DNA from: a virus
DNA length: 21,685 nt
Virus record (IMG/VR): IMGVR_UViG_3300017748_000173
Coordinates: 1-21,685 of that record
Strand: one strand, 5' to 3'
A program made the position numbers and the translations under genes. Numbering within the stretch: position 1 is the first letter of the stretch; every line of letters starts with the position of its first letter. Below are positions 4,311 to 20,717 of the stretch, piece after piece. The notes under the pieces are model-generated. The model made no database searches, was not told the DNA's origin, and saw only the letters and a list, made by a program, of their open reading frames with translations.

Positions 4311-4493
4311 ATGAGAGAAGATAAATTAATAACAGGTTTTACTTGTATTTGCCTTGGTGATGTGCCTTTTGGTCATTGTCCAACGGTGGTTCAATGGAAA
4401 CCAACAGATAAAACAGCAGAATGTCTTGAGTGTCAGCGAGTCTGGGATTTAGAAGCAATTAGATATACAAAAGAAATGGGAGGATGGGATTAA
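4311..4493 (+). CDS. Cys-rich 60-residue protein ending Gly-Gly-Trp-Asp
   Basis: ATG 4311 follows GAGGTGAATAAG, a good ribosome site; an in-frame ATG at 4263 inside the MazG gene is less likely. Potential metal ligands are Cys12, Cys14, His22, Cys23 and a CxxC (LECQ) near residue 40. The C-terminus reads YTKEMGGWD. A di-glycine followed by two residues, in the gene immediately before an E1-like enzyme and with a JAMM protease downstream, is what a ubiquitin-like precursor could look like. Against this, the two glycine codons also form the Shine-Dalgarno site of the E1 gene, and the Cys-rich body looks more like a zinc ribbon than a beta-grasp. Function open. Confidence 0.75.
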   Translation: MREDKLITGFTCICLGDVPFGHCPTVVQWKPTDKTAECLECQRVWDLEAIRYTKEMGGWD

Positions 4494-5050
4494 TGAGAAA
4501 AATATTAGTGATTGGAGCAGGTGGAATTGGAAGTTTTCTAATTCCTCTTTTAGATAAAGTTGGTCTTTATGATATTAAAGTTGCTGACCCTGATTCAGTA
4601 GAGGAAAAGAATATACCTTATCAAAATTTTGATAAGGAACATATCGGAAAGAATAAAGCCGTAGTTATGGAAAAATCTTATGAATCAATCAATCATGGGA
4701 CTCAATATCCTATTTTAACCAAGAAGCAGATGCAAGGCTATGACCTTGTGATTTGTTGTGTTGATAACTTGAGCGTGAGGCGAACCTTATACAACACAAG
4801 TCTTAAATGGTTAGACCTGCGAGCGCAAGGCAGAAATGCCGCCCTTGTGTCGCACAAGGCCGACCCCAAAATGTATGATATGCTTTTAGCAGGTGAAGAA
4901 GGTTCTTTCAGTTGCCAAGGGGATTCATGGGATGGAACAAATAAAGGAGTTCATTTTATGCAAGTCGCAATCGCTGGATTAGGCGCACAATGGACGCAAA
5001 GGTTCTTCAACGGAGAAGAAGTAAAAGAATACACCGTATTAAATATGTAA
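4493..5050 (+). CDS. E1/ThiF/MoeB-like adenylyltransferase
   Basis: A 185-residue Rossmann-type protein of the E1/ThiF superfamily, whose members adenylate the C-terminal glycine of ubiquitin-like proteins or sulfur carriers. Seen: nucleotide loop GAGGIGS (8-14), acidic DPDSVEEKN (32-40), Asn40 and Gln44, Lys53/Lys55 in IGKNKA, and CCVDN with Asp91. A candidate catalytic cysteine is Cys141 (SFSCQGD). The Arg normally found in the NxxRQ motif is Tyr43. Length is short compared with MoeB (about 250), as in many phage ThiF proteins. I chose ATG 4493 over 4484 because GGGAGGAT overlaps the latter. The first base overlaps the preceding stop. A JAMM protease lies two genes on, suggesting a joint pathway. 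Confidence 0.88.
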   Translation: MRKILVIGAGGIGSFLIPLLDKVGLYDIKVADPDSVEEKNIPYQNFDKEHIGKNKAVVMEKSYESINHGTQYPILTKKQMQGYDLVICCVDNLSVRRTLYNTSLKWLDLRAQGRNAALVSHKADPKMYDMLLAGEEGSFSCQGDSWDGTNKGVHFMQVAIAGLGAQWTQRFFNGEEVKEYTVLNM

Positions 5051-6207: not shown

Positions 6208-6792
6208 ATGGGAAGAATTAAAGATAAAATGATAAAAGACAATAATGAAGATAATGATGATGGTTATATTCATCATCAAATTGAACAAGCAGAATTGGAG
6301 TATTTCCGACAAAAAGCGATTGAAGACATCAAGAACCACTTTGAGATTCTTTTGGCTGAGCAACTTAGTTCTTGCGCTGGCTCAAGAGAAAAACTAGAAG
6401 GTGCTGCTATGCATCATTTAGAATTTCATGCAACTATTTGGAAGGCTTCAACAGAAACATTACCTCATCTTGAAGTGCAGGTTGTAATTGATGGAAAGAA
6501 CAATTGTTTCGTTTCTACCGGAAGTGCGGGCTATGTTGATTTCTTTCAACCACCAATCGGTATGACTCTTCCTATTCGTTGTTGGATTCATACTCATCCA
6601 TTTGGGGCCGCATATTTTAGTGGAACCGATATTCGGACTGTTTCTATTTGGGAACAAAATATGGAATGTGCTTATGTTCTTGGTGGAGACGGGCATTATG
6701 GCTTTTGGCAAAACAGTTTTAGTCCTAAGGCATTGGAAATTTATATGAACCATGAACCAGTTAAAATGCAAAAATGGGGTGAAGAAGAATGA
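6208..6792 (+). CDS. JAB1/MPN/Mov34 (JAMM) metalloprotease
   Basis: A 194-residue protein with a full JAMM zinc motif, CWIHTHPFGAAYFSGTD: His128-x-His130-Pro, then Ser138-x2-Asp141. Glu89 in HLEVQVV is a candidate for the upstream catalytic Glu. Such enzymes cut isopeptide or peptide bonds after the terminal glycine of ubiquitin-like proteins; phage versions also occur in tail-assembly modules. The N-terminal 50 residues are charged and helical. Start ATG 6208 follows GAGGTGAATAAAC. The nearby E1-like gene (4493) suggests a deubiquitinase-like or Ubl-precursor-processing role, but no recognised beta-grasp partner or E2 is in the window, and an unrelated substrate is possible. Confidence 0.88.
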   Translation: MGRIKDKMIKDNNEDNDDGYIHHQIEQAELEYFRQKAIEDIKNHFEILLAEQLSSCAGSREKLEGAAMHHLEFHATIWKASTETLPHLEVQVVIDGKNNCFVSTGSAGYVDFFQPPIGMTLPIRCWIHTHPFGAAYFSGTDIRTVSIWEQNMECAYVLGGDGHYGFWQNSFSPKALEIYMNHEPVKMQKWGEEE

Positions 6793-12410: not shown

Positions 12411-12790
12411 TGAGTAAATCAGAAGCAAATGCTAAAGTAAATTATATTGCAGACTATACTGGTAAAGTTAGAAAAATTTCAGACATGAGTTTGAAACAGG
12501 TAAATACTCATTTATCCCATATTTCTAGAAAAACTAAATGGAATAGTAAAGTGCTTATTTATTTGTATGAACGAAGGTCGCAACTTCTTGGCTCTGATAA
12601 ACCAGAACCAAGAAAGAATCAACGCAAGATAGCGGAATGGGCCGGTATTAAAATACTACCTAAAGACGCAAAACCCGAAAATGAACAAAGATACAAACAG
12701 TTAATTTTGTTGTGTCTTTCTATGTTTGATAACGATACTGCTGACCTTCCCGTAATTGAAGCAATTCTAAGGCAGGTGATGGATGAATGA
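12410..12790 (+). CDS. Unrecognised basic 126-residue protein
   Basis: Starts at ATG 12410, sharing one base with the preceding stop; GGGGTGATG lies just upstream. The N-terminal two thirds are basic and helical (about 25-60), followed by a Lys/Arg/Pro linker near 65-75, and the last third is an acidic helical segment. No motif recognised. It overlaps the histone-fold gene by four bases. A DNA-associated role would suit its charge and neighbours, but this is inference. Confidence 0.75.
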   Translation: MSKSEANAKVNYIADYTGKVRKISDMSLKQVNTHLSHISRKTKWNSKVLIYLYERRSQLLGSDKPEPRKNQRKIAEWAGIKILPKDAKPENEQRYKQLILLCLSMFDNDTADLPVIEAILRQVMDE

Positions 12791-13233
12791 TTACTCAAGG
12801 CGATATGACAATTATTGGAACGACAACATACCGTTGTTTGAAAATTGAAGAAGGTATGGCTCACTTAAAGAATATTCTGCATGAACAGGGCAGACCAAAG
12901 ATTGTTGAGCAGAAATACTGCCCCTATATTTTAAATGGAGAACTTATTGTTCCTGAAAAACCAAAACCAAAACCAATACCCAGAGTTACGAAATTAAATA
13001 TAACTCAACTTATTAAGGAAACGACTGATTTAACAGTATCTAACGATGCAAAGTATTTCATTAGCGAGTGGGTTGAAACTGCTATTGCTAACTTGGTAAG
13101 CAACGCCGAGGAAAATGCTTTAATGATGGGACACTCTCGCTTAACTGCCGCCCACTTCTTTTGGCTTGAAACAAATACTGCTCCTAACGGATATTGGCCT
13201 GAAAATAAAGAATACATGGAAGAGAGTGAATAA
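12787..13233 (+). CDS. Histone-fold protein with N-terminal extension
   Basis: A 148-residue protein with two parts. Residues 1-55 form a small alpha/beta domain I cannot place, followed by a Pro/Lys linker (56-67). Residues 70-127 read as a histone fold: short helix NITQLIKETTD, loop and VSNDAKYF matching the VSDDAR start of archaeal histone helix 2, a long helix to about 113, then SRLTAAHFFWLE, whose Arg118-x-Thr120 equals the RxT pair of histone loop L2. Archaeal histones are about 67 residues with no extension, so this is a fusion, perhaps closer to TAF/NF-Y-type proteins. It may compact or organise viral DNA or compete with host histones. Start is in an ATGA overlap behind GGTGATGG. The call is by motif only. 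Confidence 0.72.
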   Translation: MITQGDMTIIGTTTYRCLKIEEGMAHLKNILHEQGRPKIVEQKYCPYILNGELIVPEKPKPKPIPRVTKLNITQLIKETTDLTVSNDAKYFISEWVETAIANLVSNAEENALMMGHSRLTAAHFFWLETNTAPNGYWPENKEYMEESE

Positions 13234-13609: not shown

Positions 13610-13997
13610 TAAGGATATGCTTATTGGTATTCTCCTTAGTCTTTCTAAAATGGACTTTACTTTAGAACGAAGCCCTGCATCAAAAATGGGTTATATCGTA
13701 AGACTTTCATTATCAATAAGAGGAGATGAAAAATTTCTTCTTGGGGTAAAAAGAAGTCTTTTACAACATGAAATAACTTCTTCTTACAAAGAAAAAGAAA
13801 GTAAAACAAGACCAAGGCCTATTCTTAAGATAGGCGGCATAAAGAATCTATACAAGATAGTTGAAATGACACCGAATCTTCCAGATGCAAAAAATGAATG
13901 GACGGTATTTAGAGAAGTGGTGAATTTGGTTTCTTACGGAGAACACCGTAATGCAGAAGGATTAGAAAGAATATTTGAATTAAAAGGGGTAATTTAA
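13602..13997 (+). CDS. Degenerate LAGLIDADG-fold (homing endonuclease-like) protein
   Basis: A 131-residue protein behind AAGGAG. Its second half follows the pattern of single-domain LAGLIDADG proteins: PRPILKIGGIKNLYKIVE (71-88), PNLPDAKNEW (91-100), then FREVVNLVSYGEHRNAEGL (103-121), where GEH...GL..I is typical. The first helix, MLIGILLSLSKMDFTLE (6-22), sits where LAGLIDADG should be, but the catalytic Asp is replaced by Leu. I infer a fold that has lost DNA cleavage and been recruited as a DNA-binding or structural factor, as happened in some cellular regulators. It lies one base from the PIP-box P-loop gene, suggesting work at the replication fork. Family call is moderate. Confidence 0.62.
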   Translation: MYSKDMLIGILLSLSKMDFTLERSPASKMGYIVRLSLSIRGDEKFLLGVKRSLLQHEITSSYKEKESKTRPRPILKIGGIKNLYKIVEMTPNLPDAKNEWTVFREVVNLVSYGEHRNAEGLERIFELKGVI

Positions 13998-14839
13998 TGG
14001 GATTAACCAATTACAATAAAGAAAGACCAATACTACTTACAGGAAAACACGGAACAGGTAAATCAACAAAAGCCAAGACCTTTGTAAATGACCCTGTGAT
14101 AATGTATGCAAATGACATTGATTTTGATGTAGGTTCCTTTCCAATTGAAAGGGGAATTATCATTGAAGATGTTCATTATAAGCCAGACAAAGAAGCGATT
14201 CTTGATATACTTCGCAGATTCAATGGTCAGATAGTTTTAACTTCTATTGACCAAAAATCCGTTCCAAAGAATATTGTAGCGATGTGTAAAATCAAAAGAG
14301 CCGGTAAAACCAACTTTCTATCTGAAAAATGTTCCAAGGTTGCTCCCAACTCCGAGCCTCCCTTTTCTTACGAGAGAGACACTTATTCTCTTTGTTATGA
14401 GTATTTGAAAGAGAGCAATCGTGATTTGATTAAAGACTTGCTTTTGTTCAATAAGCCAGCCGATACCCAGATTTTATCTTGGCTGTCGGAAAATATGCAC
14501 CCAAACAGGCTAATTTTTGTAGATGGTGTGGTTAAAAGGCGTTGGAGTCAGCGATATTTCTATGAAATGTTAGCATATTCCCATCAAGGAAACATGGCAG
14601 GTCGGCTAAATATGCCAAGAAGGAGACAGTATTCTAAAATACCGTTTCTTTCTCGCAAACTGGGTGTTAAAAACCCTGTTATACTGAATCAGTTATTAAA
14701 AGACCCAGAATTTAAAGAATGGGCAAAGAAAAAACTAACACACGCAGAGTGCCGACTTCTTAAAATCGGTGAAAAAAGAAAAAGAAAGAAAACAGACCCA
14801 ATAAGGGTTGAACAAAAATCTTTGGGGGATTATTTTTGA
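13997..14839 (+). CDS. P-loop ATPase with C-terminal PIP box; probable minimal RFC large-subunit analogue
   Basis: A 280-residue protein. Walker A GKHGTGKS is at 16-23 and a Walker B-like GIIIED at 53-58. The centre (120-260) is basic and helical. It ends with QKSLGDYF (273-280), an exact QxxLxxYF PCNA-interacting peptide at the extreme C-terminus, preceded by a KRKRKK linker. Archaeal RFC large subunits also end in a PIP box, and the RFC small subunit gene follows at 14984, so this may be a much shortened clamp-loader large subunit (cellular ones are about 400-550 residues). No SRC motif was seen, as expected for a large subunit. A clamp-tethered helicase or repair ATPase is the main alternative. 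Start ATG 13997 follows AAGGGGTAA. Confidence 0.7.
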   Translation: MGLTNYNKERPILLTGKHGTGKSTKAKTFVNDPVIMYANDIDFDVGSFPIERGIIIEDVHYKPDKEAILDILRRFNGQIVLTSIDQKSVPKNIVAMCKIKRAGKTNFLSEKCSKVAPNSEPPFSYERDTYSLCYEYLKESNRDLIKDLLLFNKPADTQILSWLSENMHPNRLIFVDGVVKRRWSQRYFYEMLAYSHQGNMAGRLNMPRRRQYSKIPFLSRKLGVKNPVILNQLLKDPEFKEWAKKKLTHAECRLLKIGEKRKRKKTDPIRVEQKSLGDYF

Positions 14840-14970
14840 AGCCTACCTGTAAAATGTATGAATGTCCTAATTGTTATACTGTAAGGATAGCATACACCAA
14901 AACATATTGTATGATTTGTAGAAGGTATTCCCATAAAGTAAAAATGCATGTAAAAGAATACATATTTTAA
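14836..14970 (+). CDS. Small zinc-ribbon protein (44 residues)
   Basis: Starts at TTG 14836 in a TTGA overlap with the preceding stop, with GGGGGAT upstream. The peptide has two knuckles, CPNC (10-13) and CMIC (25-28), about 12 residues apart, a classic minimal zinc ribbon, followed by a basic His/Lys tail. It sits between the putative clamp-loader subunits. Too short for usual gene cut-offs but well supported by the cysteine spacing and junction. A nucleic-acid-binding role is likely for this fold; the partner is unknown. Confidence 0.65.
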   Translation: MKPTCKMYECPNCYTVRIAYTKTYCMICRRYSHKVKMHVKEYIF

Positions 14971-14983
14971 AGGAGAGATATAA

Positions 14984-15895
14984 ATGCTATGGACAGAAAA
15001 ATATAGACCAAAAACAATTAAAGAATTAAAAGGACAAGAACATTTTGTCATGGATGCTAGAAGTTGGATTGAAGAAAAAGATGTTCCTAATCTTCTATTA
15101 TACGGAAATCCTGGAACTGGTAAAACAGGAGCAGGAATGGTTATAGCAAGAGAAGTATTAGGTGATAATTTCAATGATAACTTTATTGAAGTAAATGCTT
15201 CAGATGATAGGCGTTTAGAAACTGTGCGAACTACTATCAAGAATTATGCTCAAAGCGGAACTATCGGTGATGTTCCGTTTAGAATGATGCTTCTTGATGA
15301 GATGGATGGTATGACTACTGATGCCCAAAATGCTTTGAAGAGAATCATGGAGAGATATTCAAGCAATATTCGTTTTATCATTACTTGTAATGATAGAAAT
15401 AAAATCATATTTGCGCTTCAAAGCAGGTGTGCAAACTATCATTTCAAACCTCTATCTAATGAGGTCATGCTTGATGTATTACAATCAATTCTTAAGCGTG
15501 AAGAAATAACCCGATTTACCGCAGACGAGATGAAGCCCTTTATATACTCTCTTCACGGTGATTTAAGACGAGGGATAACCGAACTGCAAGCGGCTAAAGC
15601 AAGCAATTCCCCTCTATCAAAACAACTTGAAATCGGTTTGACTGAATATAACGAATTGTTAATTTTAATCACAAATAAAAATGCAAATGCTCTCAGCAAA
15701 GTTCACGATTTCTTGTATGATGGTAAGTCAGTAAGAGATATTTGTATTGGTTTGCACGACGCAGTTATTAATGCAGAAAATCTGGATTCAACAACGAAAT
15801 TTAAATTCCTACGGACATTAGGCGAAAGCGAATGGCGTTCTAACACAATGACCCCGAAAGTGTTGGTATCATGGATGATGGGTCAATTACTATAA
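14984..15895 (+). CDS. Replication factor C small subunit (clamp loader ATPase)
   Basis: A 303-residue AAA+ ATPase that loads the sliding clamp onto primed DNA. It opens with LWTEKYRPKTIKELKGQE, typical of RFC small subunits (RFC box II). Walker A is GNPGTGKT (41-48), Walker B LLDEMD (103-108), sensor 1 ITCND (133-137), the Arg-finger SRC motif at 147-149 and a sensor 2-like GDLRRG near 191. Cellular homologues are about 320 residues, so it is complete. AAAGGAGAGAT precedes the start. It would act with the clamp at 18280 and probably with the PIP-box protein at 13997. Confidence 0.95.
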   Translation: MLWTEKYRPKTIKELKGQEHFVMDARSWIEEKDVPNLLLYGNPGTGKTGAGMVIAREVLGDNFNDNFIEVNASDDRRLETVRTTIKNYAQSGTIGDVPFRMMLLDEMDGMTTDAQNALKRIMERYSSNIRFIITCNDRNKIIFALQSRCANYHFKPLSNEVMLDVLQSILKREEITRFTADEMKPFIYSLHGDLRRGITELQAAKASNSPLSKQLEIGLTEYNELLILITNKNANALSKVHDFLYDGKSVRDICIGLHDAVINAENLDSTTKFKFLRTLGESEWRSNTMTPKVLVSWMMGQLL

Positions 15896-15921: not shown

Positions 15922-17127
15922 ATGGATATGAAAAACCAAATTGAAGAAGGCGCAAAGGTCATTGGCTTGAGCGTTGAAGAAGCGACGAACAAATTGGAAG
16001 AGATTTGTTCTGAAAACGGCATTGAAACAACAAACCCTATCGCATTGGGTCTTTGGAGAAACTTTGTCGCAAATACCCGACGAGCGCAAAAGTCTGGTGA
16101 TGAGGCAAAAACAAATGATTCTTTCTACAAGAGTGCATTTGGATTCTTTGTTTCTCTTGATGCACCGAGAGATATGATGAGTTGGAACCGAAATCAAGCA
16201 AAAGAAGAATATCTTCGTGATGCTGATAATGCTCTTGAAAAGGGGATTGTAGCAGTAGCAACAGAAAACGCTCTTGGTAAATTCACAGTTTCCCGATTCT
16301 TTAAGGGAACCTATGAAGAAAAGATTGTTTCAAAGTTGCCTGACGGTGCAGAAACTCTTGAAGATGGAAGAGTCTATATTCCTCTTGATTCAACAGAAAC
16401 TTACATGAATGGTGGAAAGAACGATGCTTTCGGAAAGCCACTTCCAAAGGAACAGTTCCGCCGAACTGGTATTTTCTTTGGTCAAATAGGAAATGGTGAA
16501 ATGAAATCATATTTCTTTTCTTACAAGAATCAAGGTGGAGTTGATTTTGCACCAAACACTTTTGAATGGTGTCATTTCTTGTGTGTTCTTTCAAATGATG
16601 AAACCTCTCTTTACGGTGCAAAAGATTTGACTTTTAGTAGTCTTACTATGAATGCTGAAATGGAGAAGGAAAATGATTTGTATCGTGATATGGATTCATT
16701 TGACTTTGAAAGTTGCTTGCGAGATAACTTTGAAAAGCATCTTTATCCACTTGTTGAAATGGAAAGAGCGCATATTGAGATGCAATCACAGGCTTCAAGA
16801 GAGCGTTTCGTCATTACTGATGGAACGGTGTGCAATATGAACATGACTCCAACAAAGAACGGAAACCGAATTATCAACTTAACAGACTTGAATGCTGAAA
16901 TCTCTTATGATGATGATGCAATCACTACCTGTTGGATTCCTGAGCATTTGACTCTTGATTTCGGTATTGGTTCTTCTGTAATCGTTGTTGGCCGAACAAG
17001 CCAACGAACAACTGATGAAGGGGTTGAACCAATCACTATCAATGTAGCAGGTCTATATTGTGTGATTCGTCATGGTTCTGCTGTTGAAGTTGCTCAACCT
17101 GTTGAAGAGGACTTTGACTGGTTTTGA
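15922..17127 (+). CDS. Probable single-stranded DNA-binding protein (RPA-like, OB fold)
   Basis: A 401-residue protein placed between clamp loader and recombinase genes. The N-terminal 70 residues are helical; the middle is beta-rich; residues about 310-385 (NRIINLTDLNAEISY, WIPEHLTLDF, SSVIVVGRTSQ, INVAGLYCVI) look like an OB fold. The C-terminus is acidic and ends EEDFDWF, like the partner-binding tails of bacterial SSB, T4 gp32 and T7 gp2.5 that end in aromatic residues. I infer ssDNA binding at the viral fork; no clear signature motif makes this certain. The start has GGTGA in an A-rich leader (15896-15921). The only sizeable non-coding gap of the window follows, with RNA hairpins. Confidence 0.6.
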   Translation: MDMKNQIEEGAKVIGLSVEEATNKLEEICSENGIETTNPIALGLWRNFVANTRRAQKSGDEAKTNDSFYKSAFGFFVSLDAPRDMMSWNRNQAKEEYLRDADNALEKGIVAVATENALGKFTVSRFFKGTYEEKIVSKLPDGAETLEDGRVYIPLDSTETYMNGGKNDAFGKPLPKEQFRRTGIFFGQIGNGEMKSYFFSYKNQGGVDFAPNTFEWCHFLCVLSNDETSLYGAKDLTFSSLTMNAEMEKENDLYRDMDSFDFESCLRDNFEKHLYPLVEMERAHIEMQSQASRERFVITDGTVCNMNMTPTKNGNRIINLTDLNAEISYDDDAITTCWIPEHLTLDFGIGSSVIVVGRTSQRTTDEGVEPITINVAGLYCVIRHGSAVEVAQPVEEDFDWF

Positions 17128-17464: not shown

Positions 17465-18283
17465 ATGGGATTAACTAGTGGAAAAAAGATTGAAGTTGAT
17501 GAAGGAATGGTGAACAACGCAAGAGTTGTTGCATTCAAGAATAAGTTAGCAAAGCAAACAGAAGGAAGACTGGCTAGAAATAATCGTCTTATCTGTGGTA
17601 TTTGGGGAGAACCAAAAACTGTTAAAAGCGGTTTGGCTCTTGATTTTCCAGATAAGCAAATTTATGTTCTTGACTGGGATGATGGTTGCGAACCAACATG
17701 GCGACAAAACCATGAAATGACCGACAGGATTACTCTTTGGAATCCCGAAGTGCGAAACAAAAACGGTGAATTAGATATTCAAAAGTCGGAAGCAAATTCC
17801 GAAGATTTTGTTTTGTTTGTAAAGTCAAAGATTGAAGAGGGTGAAGATGTTCTTTTTGTTTTTGATGGTGTGGATAAATGGCTTGATTGTTGCACTTTGC
17901 ATGTGACGGGCTCTTCAAAAATTGGAAAGCCACAAAAGATGAAGTTTGAATGGGGTAAGAGAAATGCTCCCTTTTATTCTCTTTTGATGATGTGTAAGAA
18001 CCTTAACTGCGACCAAATCTACATTACTCATTCAAAGGCTGATTATGGAGCAACCGGAGAAGTAGTCGGTTCTAAACCAAATTGGCATAACTGGGGAGAC
18101 TATCTGCATCAAATCATTTCAACCCGAAGAACCCGCAAAAAGAACGATGTTGTGTATAAGGCTGAATTACTCAGCAGTAAAACCAATACGGCTCTTGTAG
18201 GAAAGTCTTGGGAATCATTGACCGTTGGTGGCGGAAATGTTTCTTGGGACGGTATTCCTGAAATGCGGGAGGGAAAGATTTGA
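17465..18283 (+). CDS. Sak4/RecA-like ATPase with altered Walker A
   Basis: A 272-residue RecA-fold ATPase of the phage Sak4 / AAA_24 type. The nucleotide loop is GEPKTVKS (48-55), Walker B is VLFVFD (129-134), and YITHS (186-190) is a plausible motif-3 strand end. Related enzymes have GPPKSGKT; here the Gly before Lys-Ser is Val53, while Lys54 and Ser55 remain. Sak4-type proteins support single-strand annealing recombination and work with SSB, and the gene for the probable ssDNA-binding protein lies two genes upstream. Start ATG 17465 follows TTGGTGATAAT. It overlaps the clamp gene by four bases (TTGA). Confidence 0.82.
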   Translation: MGLTSGKKIEVDEGMVNNARVVAFKNKLAKQTEGRLARNNRLICGIWGEPKTVKSGLALDFPDKQIYVLDWDDGCEPTWRQNHEMTDRITLWNPEVRNKNGELDIQKSEANSEDFVLFVKSKIEEGEDVLFVFDGVDKWLDCCTLHVTGSSKIGKPQKMKFEWGKRNAPFYSLLMMCKNLNCDQIYITHSKADYGATGEVVGSKPNWHNWGDYLHQIISTRRTRKKNDVVYKAELLSSKTNTALVGKSWESLTVGGGNVSWDGIPEMREGKI

Positions 18284-19044
18284 AATTTACAATAGATAGT
18301 GAACAATTAGAAAAAGCATTAACCAAAGTTCAAATGAAAGGAAAAGGTATTAGTGGAAGCGGATTCGGGAATACGAATCTTGGAAACTATGCTTCTCTAT
18401 ATTTGGAAGGTAATGTTCTTTCTATTTGGAACGGCAATAATACTGTTGCCGTTAAATTAAATTTGACAGTTGAAGGTGAAGAAGATGGTATTGTCGTCAT
18501 TGATACTACGAAAGTTGCTCCGTATCTTAAATCATTCAAGGATGAAGTAAAGTTTGTAGTTGGAGATTTTATTCAATTGACTACGGAAAACAGAAAAGCA
18601 TCTATTCCTTTGGTGGTTCGCCATCCTCAAGGAGATTCCATTCTAAGAATGCGTGGTCTATTGAATCATGTAAGTTATGAGGTTCAACCTCAAATGCTTT
18701 TTACTTTTGGTAAATCAAAGTTTGAAGCAGGTATTAGTCTTACGCAAAACCAATTGCTAAAAGCAATCAAGAATTGTGAGTTGGTAAAAACGGGAGTATA
18801 TAAATTCAATTACCATGAACAGATTCTTTCAGTATCATCAAGAGATGGAACGAGCAACAAATACGAAGAAACCGTTTCTCCTGTATTTCAATTAGGGGAA
18901 TCAGCAACCGTTGAATTTAGCGGGCCTTTGTATTCTTTGTTTGAGAAAGAACAAATGGTAAATGTTTATTTGAAAGATGACTTCCCTATTCTTATGGTAG
19001 CGGAAGATAGAATGTTAGTGAAAGCACCACAAATTAACGGGTGA
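18280..19044 (+). CDS. Sliding clamp (PCNA/DnaN fold)
   Basis: A 254-residue protein, the size of a PCNA monomer. It starts KFTIDSEQLEKALTKV, a typical first strand-helix of clamp domains, and ends with DFPILMVAEDRMLVKAPQ, matching the C-terminal strands of PCNA (usually ending in 'lAPri'). The middle has repeated beta strands and two helices facing the ring interior (TTKVAPYLKSF, TQNQLLKAIKNC). It would tether the polymerase and PIP-box proteins to DNA. The start is TTG 18280 in a TTGA overlap with GGGAGGG upstream. Neighbours (clamp loader, polymerase) strongly support the call, which is otherwise from fold-level similarity. Confidence 0.85.
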   Translation: MKFTIDSEQLEKALTKVQMKGKGISGSGFGNTNLGNYASLYLEGNVLSIWNGNNTVAVKLNLTVEGEEDGIVVIDTTKVAPYLKSFKDEVKFVVGDFIQLTTENRKASIPLVVRHPQGDSILRMRGLLNHVSYEVQPQMLFTFGKSKFEAGISLTQNQLLKAIKNCELVKTGVYKFNYHEQILSVSSRDGTSNKYEETVSPVFQLGESATVEFSGPLYSLFEKEQMVNVYLKDDFPILMVAEDRMLVKAPQING

Positions 19045-19049
19045 TAATA

Positions 19050-20717
19050 ATGATTGTTAATAAAATGAATGATGGAATGAGAATATACAAAGCATGGAGA
19101 GAGAACGATGAAAGAAAGTATGAAATGGTTAATTTCAGACCATATTTCTTTGTGGATGAAGAGGCTACTGAATTTCCTAGTTATTCGCCAAGTAAATATA
19201 TCACTAGGGATTTTGAGTATCTTCGTGGCAACTGGACTAATCTTGAAGGAAAGCCATTAAAGAAAGTCTTTGTTGAGAATGCAAACGATATTCGTAATGC
19301 AAAGAAGATGTGGAATGAAACCTATGAAGCAGATGTTCCTTTGCATTTTCGGTATTGTGTTGATGAGTTAGATGAAATGCCCGAATATAAACTGCGTAAG
19401 TGGTATTGGGATATGGAATGGCAACAGGGTGGAGAATACCACGATAAGATTACTACTATTGTAATGTATGATAATTACGATAAGGAATACTATCAATGGG
19501 TTTGGTTCCCCGACCAAGAACCCTATGATGGCTTCAAAGCCTCCACCGATAAAGCACAGCATCTATCGGTCTTTAATACAGAAAAAGAAATGCTTGAGTC
19601 TTTTATGACTACAATGATTGTAAAAGACCCAGATATGTTAATTGCTTGGTTTGGTCATTTTGCTGATTTACCGAAGTTATTTGAACGGGCGTGTGCCGTG
19701 GGTCTTGACCCCCGCATCATCTCTCCAATTGGCTCCGTTAAGGGCGTTAAGAAGGTCAAGGATGGCTTTTCTTTCGCTTATGGTGAAAGTGGATTCTCGC
19801 CCATTGAACAGCCCATAGGGGGCCGCATAACCCTCTCGTTAGACCTTGCTTTTGAAAGACAATGGAATGACAGCCAAAGAGGAACATTACCTTCTTTATC
19901 ACTTGATTACATCGGAGAGACTGTTCTTAACAAAAAGAAATTGGTTTCTGAGAAGTTTCCAGACGCTAACGAATTTTATCGTAAGGCTTGGTTAGAAGAT
20001 ACAGCAACTTATCTTAAGTATGCTTTGAGAGATGTTGAATTGATGGTTGAGATTGATGAAAAGAATTTTTGTAGTGAGGCGATTCTTTCACTTCAAAGGT
20101 TATTGAAAGCACCCTTTGATGCTTGTTTCTATGCTTCTCATATGGGTTCAATCTATTTTATGCGAAACGCTACTTGGAAAGCACCAACAGGAAAAAAGGT
20201 TGATGAACGCAAAGAATACGAAGGTGCGATGATTTATGACCCTCTTAGTGAAGAAACAAATGGATTACATTTGAATGTAGCCGCTTTTGATTTTGCTGGT
20301 CTATACCCTTCAATGATGATTGCTCGCAATATTAGTTGGGAAACAAAATCAAAACAACCAACAGAATTTGCTGTGAACATTCTTACACCAAGAGATTTTA
20401 GTGAAGTTAAATACCAAGATATGCTTTACTATAAGACAGATAAACTCGGACTCCTACCGAGAGCCGTTCTTGAATTGAAGGAGTTGCGAAATGAATATAA
20501 GCGACTTATGTATCAAGCACAAAAGGAGAACAATGGCGAGTATGCAAAGTGGTATAACAATCAAATGGCAGTAAAACGATTAATGGCTTCTTTCTATGGT
20601 ATTGTTGCCTTTCAAGGGTTTGGTTGGGCTGATGTAGATTTAGCCGCAAGTATTACAGCAAGTGCAAGAGAAGCAATTCGTTTAGCGGCATTTAAGGCTA
20701 AGGAGATGAAAGAATGA
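19050..20717 (+). CDS. polB: Family B DNA polymerase, N-terminal part (exonuclease, motifs A and B)
   Basis: A 555-residue N-terminal portion of a split replicative polymerase. Exonuclease site: WDME (Asp121, Glu123), WFGHFAD (Asp206; the usual Asn of Exo II is not evident) and YALRD (Tyr324, Asp328). Polymerase motif A DFAGLYPS (414-421) and motif B KRLMASFYG (509-517, Ala where Asn is common) are present. It stops after AAFKAKEMKE, exactly where a continuous polymerase would run on into KVVYGDTDS. Motif C is instead in a separate gene at 21645. The stop is clean, with no intein splicing motif. ATG 19050 was chosen over GTG 19041 because GGTGATAAT precedes it. The next gene overlaps by four bases. 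Confidence 0.95.
   Translation: MIVNKMNDGMRIYKAWRENDERKYEMVNFRPYFFVDEEATEFPSYSPSKYITRDFEYLRGNWTNLEGKPLKKVFVENANDIRNAKKMWNETYEADVPLHFRYCVDELDEMPEYKLRKWYWDMEWQQGGEYHDKITTIVMYDNYDKEYYQWVWFPDQEPYDGFKASTDKAQHLSVFNTEKEMLESFMTTMIVKDPDMLIAWFGHFADLPKLFERACAVGLDPRIISPIGSVKGVKKVKDGFSFAYGESGFSPIEQPIGGRITLSLDLAFERQWNDSQRGTLPSLSLDYIGETVLNKKKLVSEKFPDANEFYRKAWLEDTATYLKYALRDVELMVEIDEKNFCSEAILSLQRLLKAPFDACFYASHMGSIYFMRNATWKAPTGKKVDERKEYEGAMIYDPLSEETNGLHLNVAAFDFAGLYPSMMIARNISWETKSKQPTEFAVNILTPRDFSEVKYQDMLYYKTDKLGLLPRAVLELKELRNEYKRLMYQAQKENNGEYAKWYNNQMAVKRLMASFYGIVAFQGFGWADVDLAASITASAREAIRLAAFKAKEMKE

Follow-up and report, generated by a model that had tools for sequence, protein, structure and literature searches.

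Magroviruses are tailed viruses, a group assigned to marine archaea, and have been described as having nearly their own replisome. On the ICTV magrovirus genome map only the small clamp-loader subunit is labelled (PMC10768690); an earlier annotation of a large subunit elsewhere is possible. Archaeal RFC is itself a two-protein clamp loader (PMC3331839, PMC3984812), and RFC-B is the RFC subunit of H. volcanii having a C-terminal PIP box (PMC7776575). The phage T4 subunit gp62 has no AAA+ module (PMC3331839). The Druskaviridae haloviruses are relatives of magroviruses (PMC10768690, PMC8651126), and RFC large subunits (RFC-L) of about 415-420 aa are annotated in them (HCTV-1 gp82, HVTV-1 gp87 and HCTV-5 gp85).

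The window analysed here is a whole stretch of 21,685 nucleotides (IMG/VR record IMGVR_UViG_3300017748_000173, positions 1 to 21,685). It carries GroEL-like chaperonin and ATP-dependent ligase genes, read from sequence, and genes for a Sak4-like protein, a sliding clamp, the N-terminal part of PolB and, judged by position, an SSB-like protein. This set corresponds to the magrovirus replication block as described in the literature (PMC10768690). From its gene content, its gene order and the many marine contigs found, the window is taken to be such a block. An earlier note, made from the letters alone, had pointed to a P-loop protein beside the RFC small subunit (RFC-S) and read it as a stripped-down clamp loader subunit. 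Translation of the ORF confirmed a 280-aa product with Walker A GKHGTGKS at residues 16-23 and a C-terminus reading ...VEQKSLGDYF before the stop codon, in which QKSLGDYF matches QxxLxxYF; the adjacent ORF begins 145 bases past the stop codon, and its identity as RFC-S was equally borne out by NCBIfam. The features referred to below are as follows.

13997..14839, + strand: candidate reduced RFC large subunit, 280 aa (ORF, homology, collar fold)
14042..14065, + strand: Walker A GKHGTGKS, residues 16-23 (with K22 kept by all 70 homologues)
14156..14170, + strand: Walker B-like strand IIIED, residues 54-58 (with E57 and D58 kept by all 70 homologues)
14282..14287, + strand: M96-C97, aligned with the SRC arginine-finger motif of RFC-S
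14366..14617, + strand: predicted helical collar domain, about residues 124-207 (AF2 of residues 103-280; clamp-loader collars in PDB)
14630..14764, + strand: four short helices, about residues 212-256, weakly suggestive of a small A'-like domain
14813..14836, + strand: C-terminal PIP-like box QKSLGDYF, residues 273-280, preceded by a basic linker
14984..15895, + strand: RFC small subunit, proposed partner, with SRC Arg finger (NCBIfam PRK00440, E 5e-76)
18280..19044, + strand: sliding clamp, proposed substrate (PHROG_947 and beta clamp 8dt6 matches)
19041..20717, + strand: PolB N-terminal part (relatives have a separate catalytic half with a QxxLxEWF tail)

Several other frames of the window were noted. 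Between the 280-aa gene and RFC-S lies a short cysteine-rich, zinc-ribbon-like frame (14836-14970) starting at TTG or an internal ATG. The SSB-like ORF (15922-17127, 401 aa) has a conserved acidic-aromatic end, EEDFDWF. A 148-aa ORF at 12787-13233 matched a histone fold (CBFD_NFYB_HMF) only weakly, with E 0.0018, under cut-off. By eye, the ORF at 4484-5050 resembles an E1/ThiF-type adenylyltransferase and that at 6208-6792 has a JAMM-like motif, HTHPFGAAYFSGTD; the two might be a magrovirus pair for ubiquitin-like activation and deconjugation.

Single-sequence scans of Pfam, PHROGs and NCBIfam gave mainly P-loop matches and no identification of the 280-aa protein, and a PDB sequence profile search with it gave nothing useful. 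Among its homologues, PHROG_168 (clamp loader) was the most frequent family (56 of 70, best E 2.4e-6). The family profile was compared by hhalign with a reference set of ten viral and haloarchaeal RFC-L proteins and matched over residues 9-98 with a probability of 96.7, E 4.1e-10 and a score of 77; diverse RFC-S sets scored 52-60 and the Sak4-like family 31.5. When residues 1-29, and with them the P-loop, were removed from the profile, the match to RFC-L was retained (score 39.2, E 1.3e-4; best of 100 shuffles, 22.7), whereas the score against RFC-S dropped to 19.1 and that match was lost. The P-loop-free match is the best sequence evidence for an RFC-L-like protein, as opposed to one that is just AAA+. 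With the NCBIfam RFC-L model, the best family member reached E 8e-4, far under the curated cut-off, and comparison of the family profile with T4 gp62 by hhalign gave no significant similarity (score 15.3).

The core is reduced in several respects. It comprises about 100 residues, and the N-terminal RFC box (WxEKYRP) is absent, Walker A beginning at residue 16 with no box upstream in the alignment. In the models only about 25 residues, approximately one helix, separate core and collar, and a full lid with sensor 2 is missing. Walker B is non-standard, with ED where DE is usual, and the aligned sensor-1 position 84 has no Asn. The SRC arginine is also absent, position 96 being Met in 62 of 70 homologues, and the lack of an Arg finger is expected for an A-position subunit. 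The earlier note's description of a reduced RFC large subunit is largely supported, by the RFC-L profile match, collar, missing SRC arginine, tail and RFC-S linkage; the protein falls under RFC-L cut-offs and has neither the RFC box nor a full lid.

Structural models were made of the C-terminal part and of the whole protein. Residues 103-280, folded alone by AF2 with 70 sequences, gave a pLDDT of 86.7. Clamp-loader chains made up 20 of 28 Foldseek matches of this part, with weak E-values of 1.5 and up, and in a VIA-align comparison with the PDB the first 35 entries were all clamp loaders, large subunits first. The Z-scores were 7.3 for Rad24 (5.6 A, 122 aligned), 7.2 for Ctf18 (2.7 A, 83 aligned), 6.8 for RFC1 (2.5 A, 80 aligned) and 6.5 for T4 gp44, and fell to 3.2 in the next rows after the clamp loaders; a Z of 6-7 alone has little meaning for a helical bundle, and the argument lies in the uniform identity of the matches and the gap below them. 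Structural alignments of Rad24 and RFC1 reached into the four-helix region (residues 212-256) at an rmsd of 5.6-6.5. Collar-only hhalign with a first, shallower alignment was not significant (3 of 60 shuffles higher); with a deeper alignment the collar profile beat 100 of 100 shuffles against the RFC-L collar, in register with the RFC-L PDxLxxWIxEN motif. Residues 103-280 are predicted from these models to form the clamp-loader collar fold. The full-length AF2 model had a pTM of 0.43, leaving the domain arrangement uncertain. Its first 16 Foldseek matches in the PDB were clamp loaders. Its VIA-align comparisons covered mostly the core and scored RuvB as high as gp44, so the core fold alone is no proof of clamp-loader identity.

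Viral contig scans yielded 155 loci with the gene's family and 113 unique complete proteins including the query, with identities to the window protein of 48-93%. One match came from a cellular record, contig L086 (NZMJ01000161.1, from a Maricaulis MAG); it is 4 kb long, has the same length and match as viral contig L001, and is most likely a magrovirus contig placed there by a binning error. A BLAST search of annotated phages, a set that did not include the reference magrovirus records, found no relative of the 280-aa protein. In all 150 of the 155 loci with at least 1.5 kb of following sequence, RFC-S adjoined the family gene, lying 3' of it in 148 and slightly overlapping its end in 2. All 81 loci that have 7.5 kb of downstream sequence also carry the clamp, PolB-N, SSB-like and Sak4-like genes. 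A scan of eleven magrovirus contigs of 75-97 kb (contig completeness not given) with the RFC-L model found no canonical RFC-L; the model matched one place per contig, with its AAA+ part only, and the frames matched, of 304-355 aa, are what RFC-S would give.

On the clamp side, 30 of 39 members of the 254-aa family matched PHROG_947 (processivity factor), and the family matched the N-terminal domain of a bacterial beta clamp (8dt6, E 1.3e-6); sequence searches with it gave no PCNA match. PolB was split just before motif C in loci L002-L240 (e.g. the catalytic half at L012:17860-18762). In all 61 matches motif C read YGHTDS, His replacing the first Asp; the Druskaviridae have YGDTDS.

The PIP box, called perfect in the earlier note, holds for the window virus and most relatives, Qxxhxx[YFW] being found within the last 16 residues of 72 of 113 homologues, but its Gln is not invariant. 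The note had counted homologues without the box against its reading, and this applies in part, the Gln being missing from 41 of 113 (36%); the hydrophobic core hxx[YFW] is never lost from the last 16 residues (113/113). A background set of 2,815 unique ORFs, each 80 aa or longer, was drawn from 151 magrovirus loci, and 122 of them ended in Qxx[LIM]xx[YFW]: 70 of the 280-aa family, 46 PolB catalytic halves and 6 others. Moving the motif 20 or 35 residues upstream of the ORF end left 8 or 5 matches, respectively. All 46 unique tails of the PolB catalytic half carried QxxLxEWF/W. The C-terminal Gln motif is thus above chance and essentially limited to the PolB catalytic half and the 280-aa family, a distribution that clamp-binding tails should show. 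Haloviral RFC-L ends in SQSVLDF, haloarchaeal RFC-L in QSGLSDFM and haloviral PolB in GVLSW. A clamp-docking peptide common to polymerase and loader would be the simplest reading.

Because of the RFC-L-specific profile match, the collar fold, the missing SRC arginine, the PIP-like tail, the RFC-S linkage and the lack of another RFC-L in the 75-97 kb relatives, the 280-aa protein is very probably the A subunit, a reduced and divergent RFC large subunit of the magrovirus clamp loader. Its computed basis is a core closest to RFC-L, a collar fold, constant pairing with RFC-S and a conserved C-terminal motif common with PolB. Against the A-subunit reading stand scores below RFC-L cut-offs, weak Foldseek E-values for the collar, a shallow collar test within shuffles, the missing box, lid and standard Walker B, and loss of the Gln in 41 of 113. 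In a clamp loader made of two virus-encoded proteins, it would be the large subunit, at the A position: a single copy would join about four copies of RFC-S via the collar, and its compact AAA+ core would bind ATP at the RFC-S interface, the arginine finger being supplied by RFC-S as the 280-aa subunit has none. The flexible QxxLxxYF tail would dock into a hydrophobic pocket of the viral clamp, and the loader would open the ring and set it on primer-template junctions, where the viral PolB, with its similar tail, would use it. The 1:4 stoichiometry, ATP binding, clamp docking and loading activity are what we infer.

A variant compatible with this A-subunit explanation is that the protein sits at the A position and binds the clamp without hydrolysing ATP. 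Its part would then be structural or ATP-sensing, close in function to that of T4 gp62 or bacterial delta. The IIIED Walker B, the lid of about one helix and the missing sensor-1 Asn fit such a subunit, as does the precedent of gp62 (PMC3331839); all 70 homologues nevertheless keep the Lys of Walker A and the two acidic residues, for which a dead site would have no need, and the A site of archaeal RFC-L is active (PMC3331839). We regard the variant as possible, if somewhat doubtful. Rad24 and Ctf18 are among the best collar matches, as would be seen if the protein acted in a Ctf18/Elg1/Rad24-like role, an alternative loader or unloader subunit beside host RFC-L and not replacing it. Those rows are tied with RFC1, however (Z within 1), and the virus has an RFC-S, a clamp and a polymerase of its own, with RFC-S always adjacent, so that this role is highly improbable. 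We give equally little credence to another clamp-bound P-loop NTPase, whether a helicase loader (DnaC/IstB) or a Sak4-type recombinase, using the PIP box for recruitment only: the weak matches to AAA_24/Sak4 and DnaC-like families that speak for it are confined to the P-loop region of the window protein, the Sak4 profile scored far below RFC-L, a clamp-loader collar follows the core, and the virus has a separate Sak4-like gene.

If the 280-aa protein is the A subunit, the half so far missing beside the labelled RFC-S, the magrovirus clamp loader would be complete, and independence from host RFC would be supported. The protein would also offer a natural minimal A subunit for asking which clamp-loader parts are dispensable. 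Tentatively, having lost lid and RFC box and kept a nucleotide-binding core, it may stand, in structure, midway from archaeal RFC-L to T4 gp62 with its lack of an AAA+ module; if so, it would illustrate one way in which the fifth ATPase is shed from viral clamp loaders.

Among known systems, the Druskaviridae RFC-L resembles the magroviral protein as an A-type subunit encoded alongside RFC-S and PolB in a replication block, without the SRC triplet and with a collar region and PIP-like C-terminus, but differs in its RFC N-terminal box, full lid and greater length, and BLAST gave no link between the two. Eukaryotic RFC1, Rad24 and Ctf18 provide the best fold matches of the C-terminal half, but are much larger, with extra domains. 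The earlier note's analogy with T4 holds loosely, in that gp62 with gp44 also pairs a small viral A subunit with one kind of ATPase subunit; gp62, however, has 187 aa and no AAA+ module, whereas in the magroviral protein the P-loop is intact and the AAA+ core is kept. Archaeal RFC-L (e.g. haloarchaeal RFC-B) likewise forms a two-protein loader with RFC-S and has an AAA+ core, collar and C-terminal PIP box, differing in its length of about 500 aa, complete AAA+ module and long acidic tail. The nearest model for the magroviral loader is archaeal RFC-S with RFC-L, not T4 gp44/gp62.
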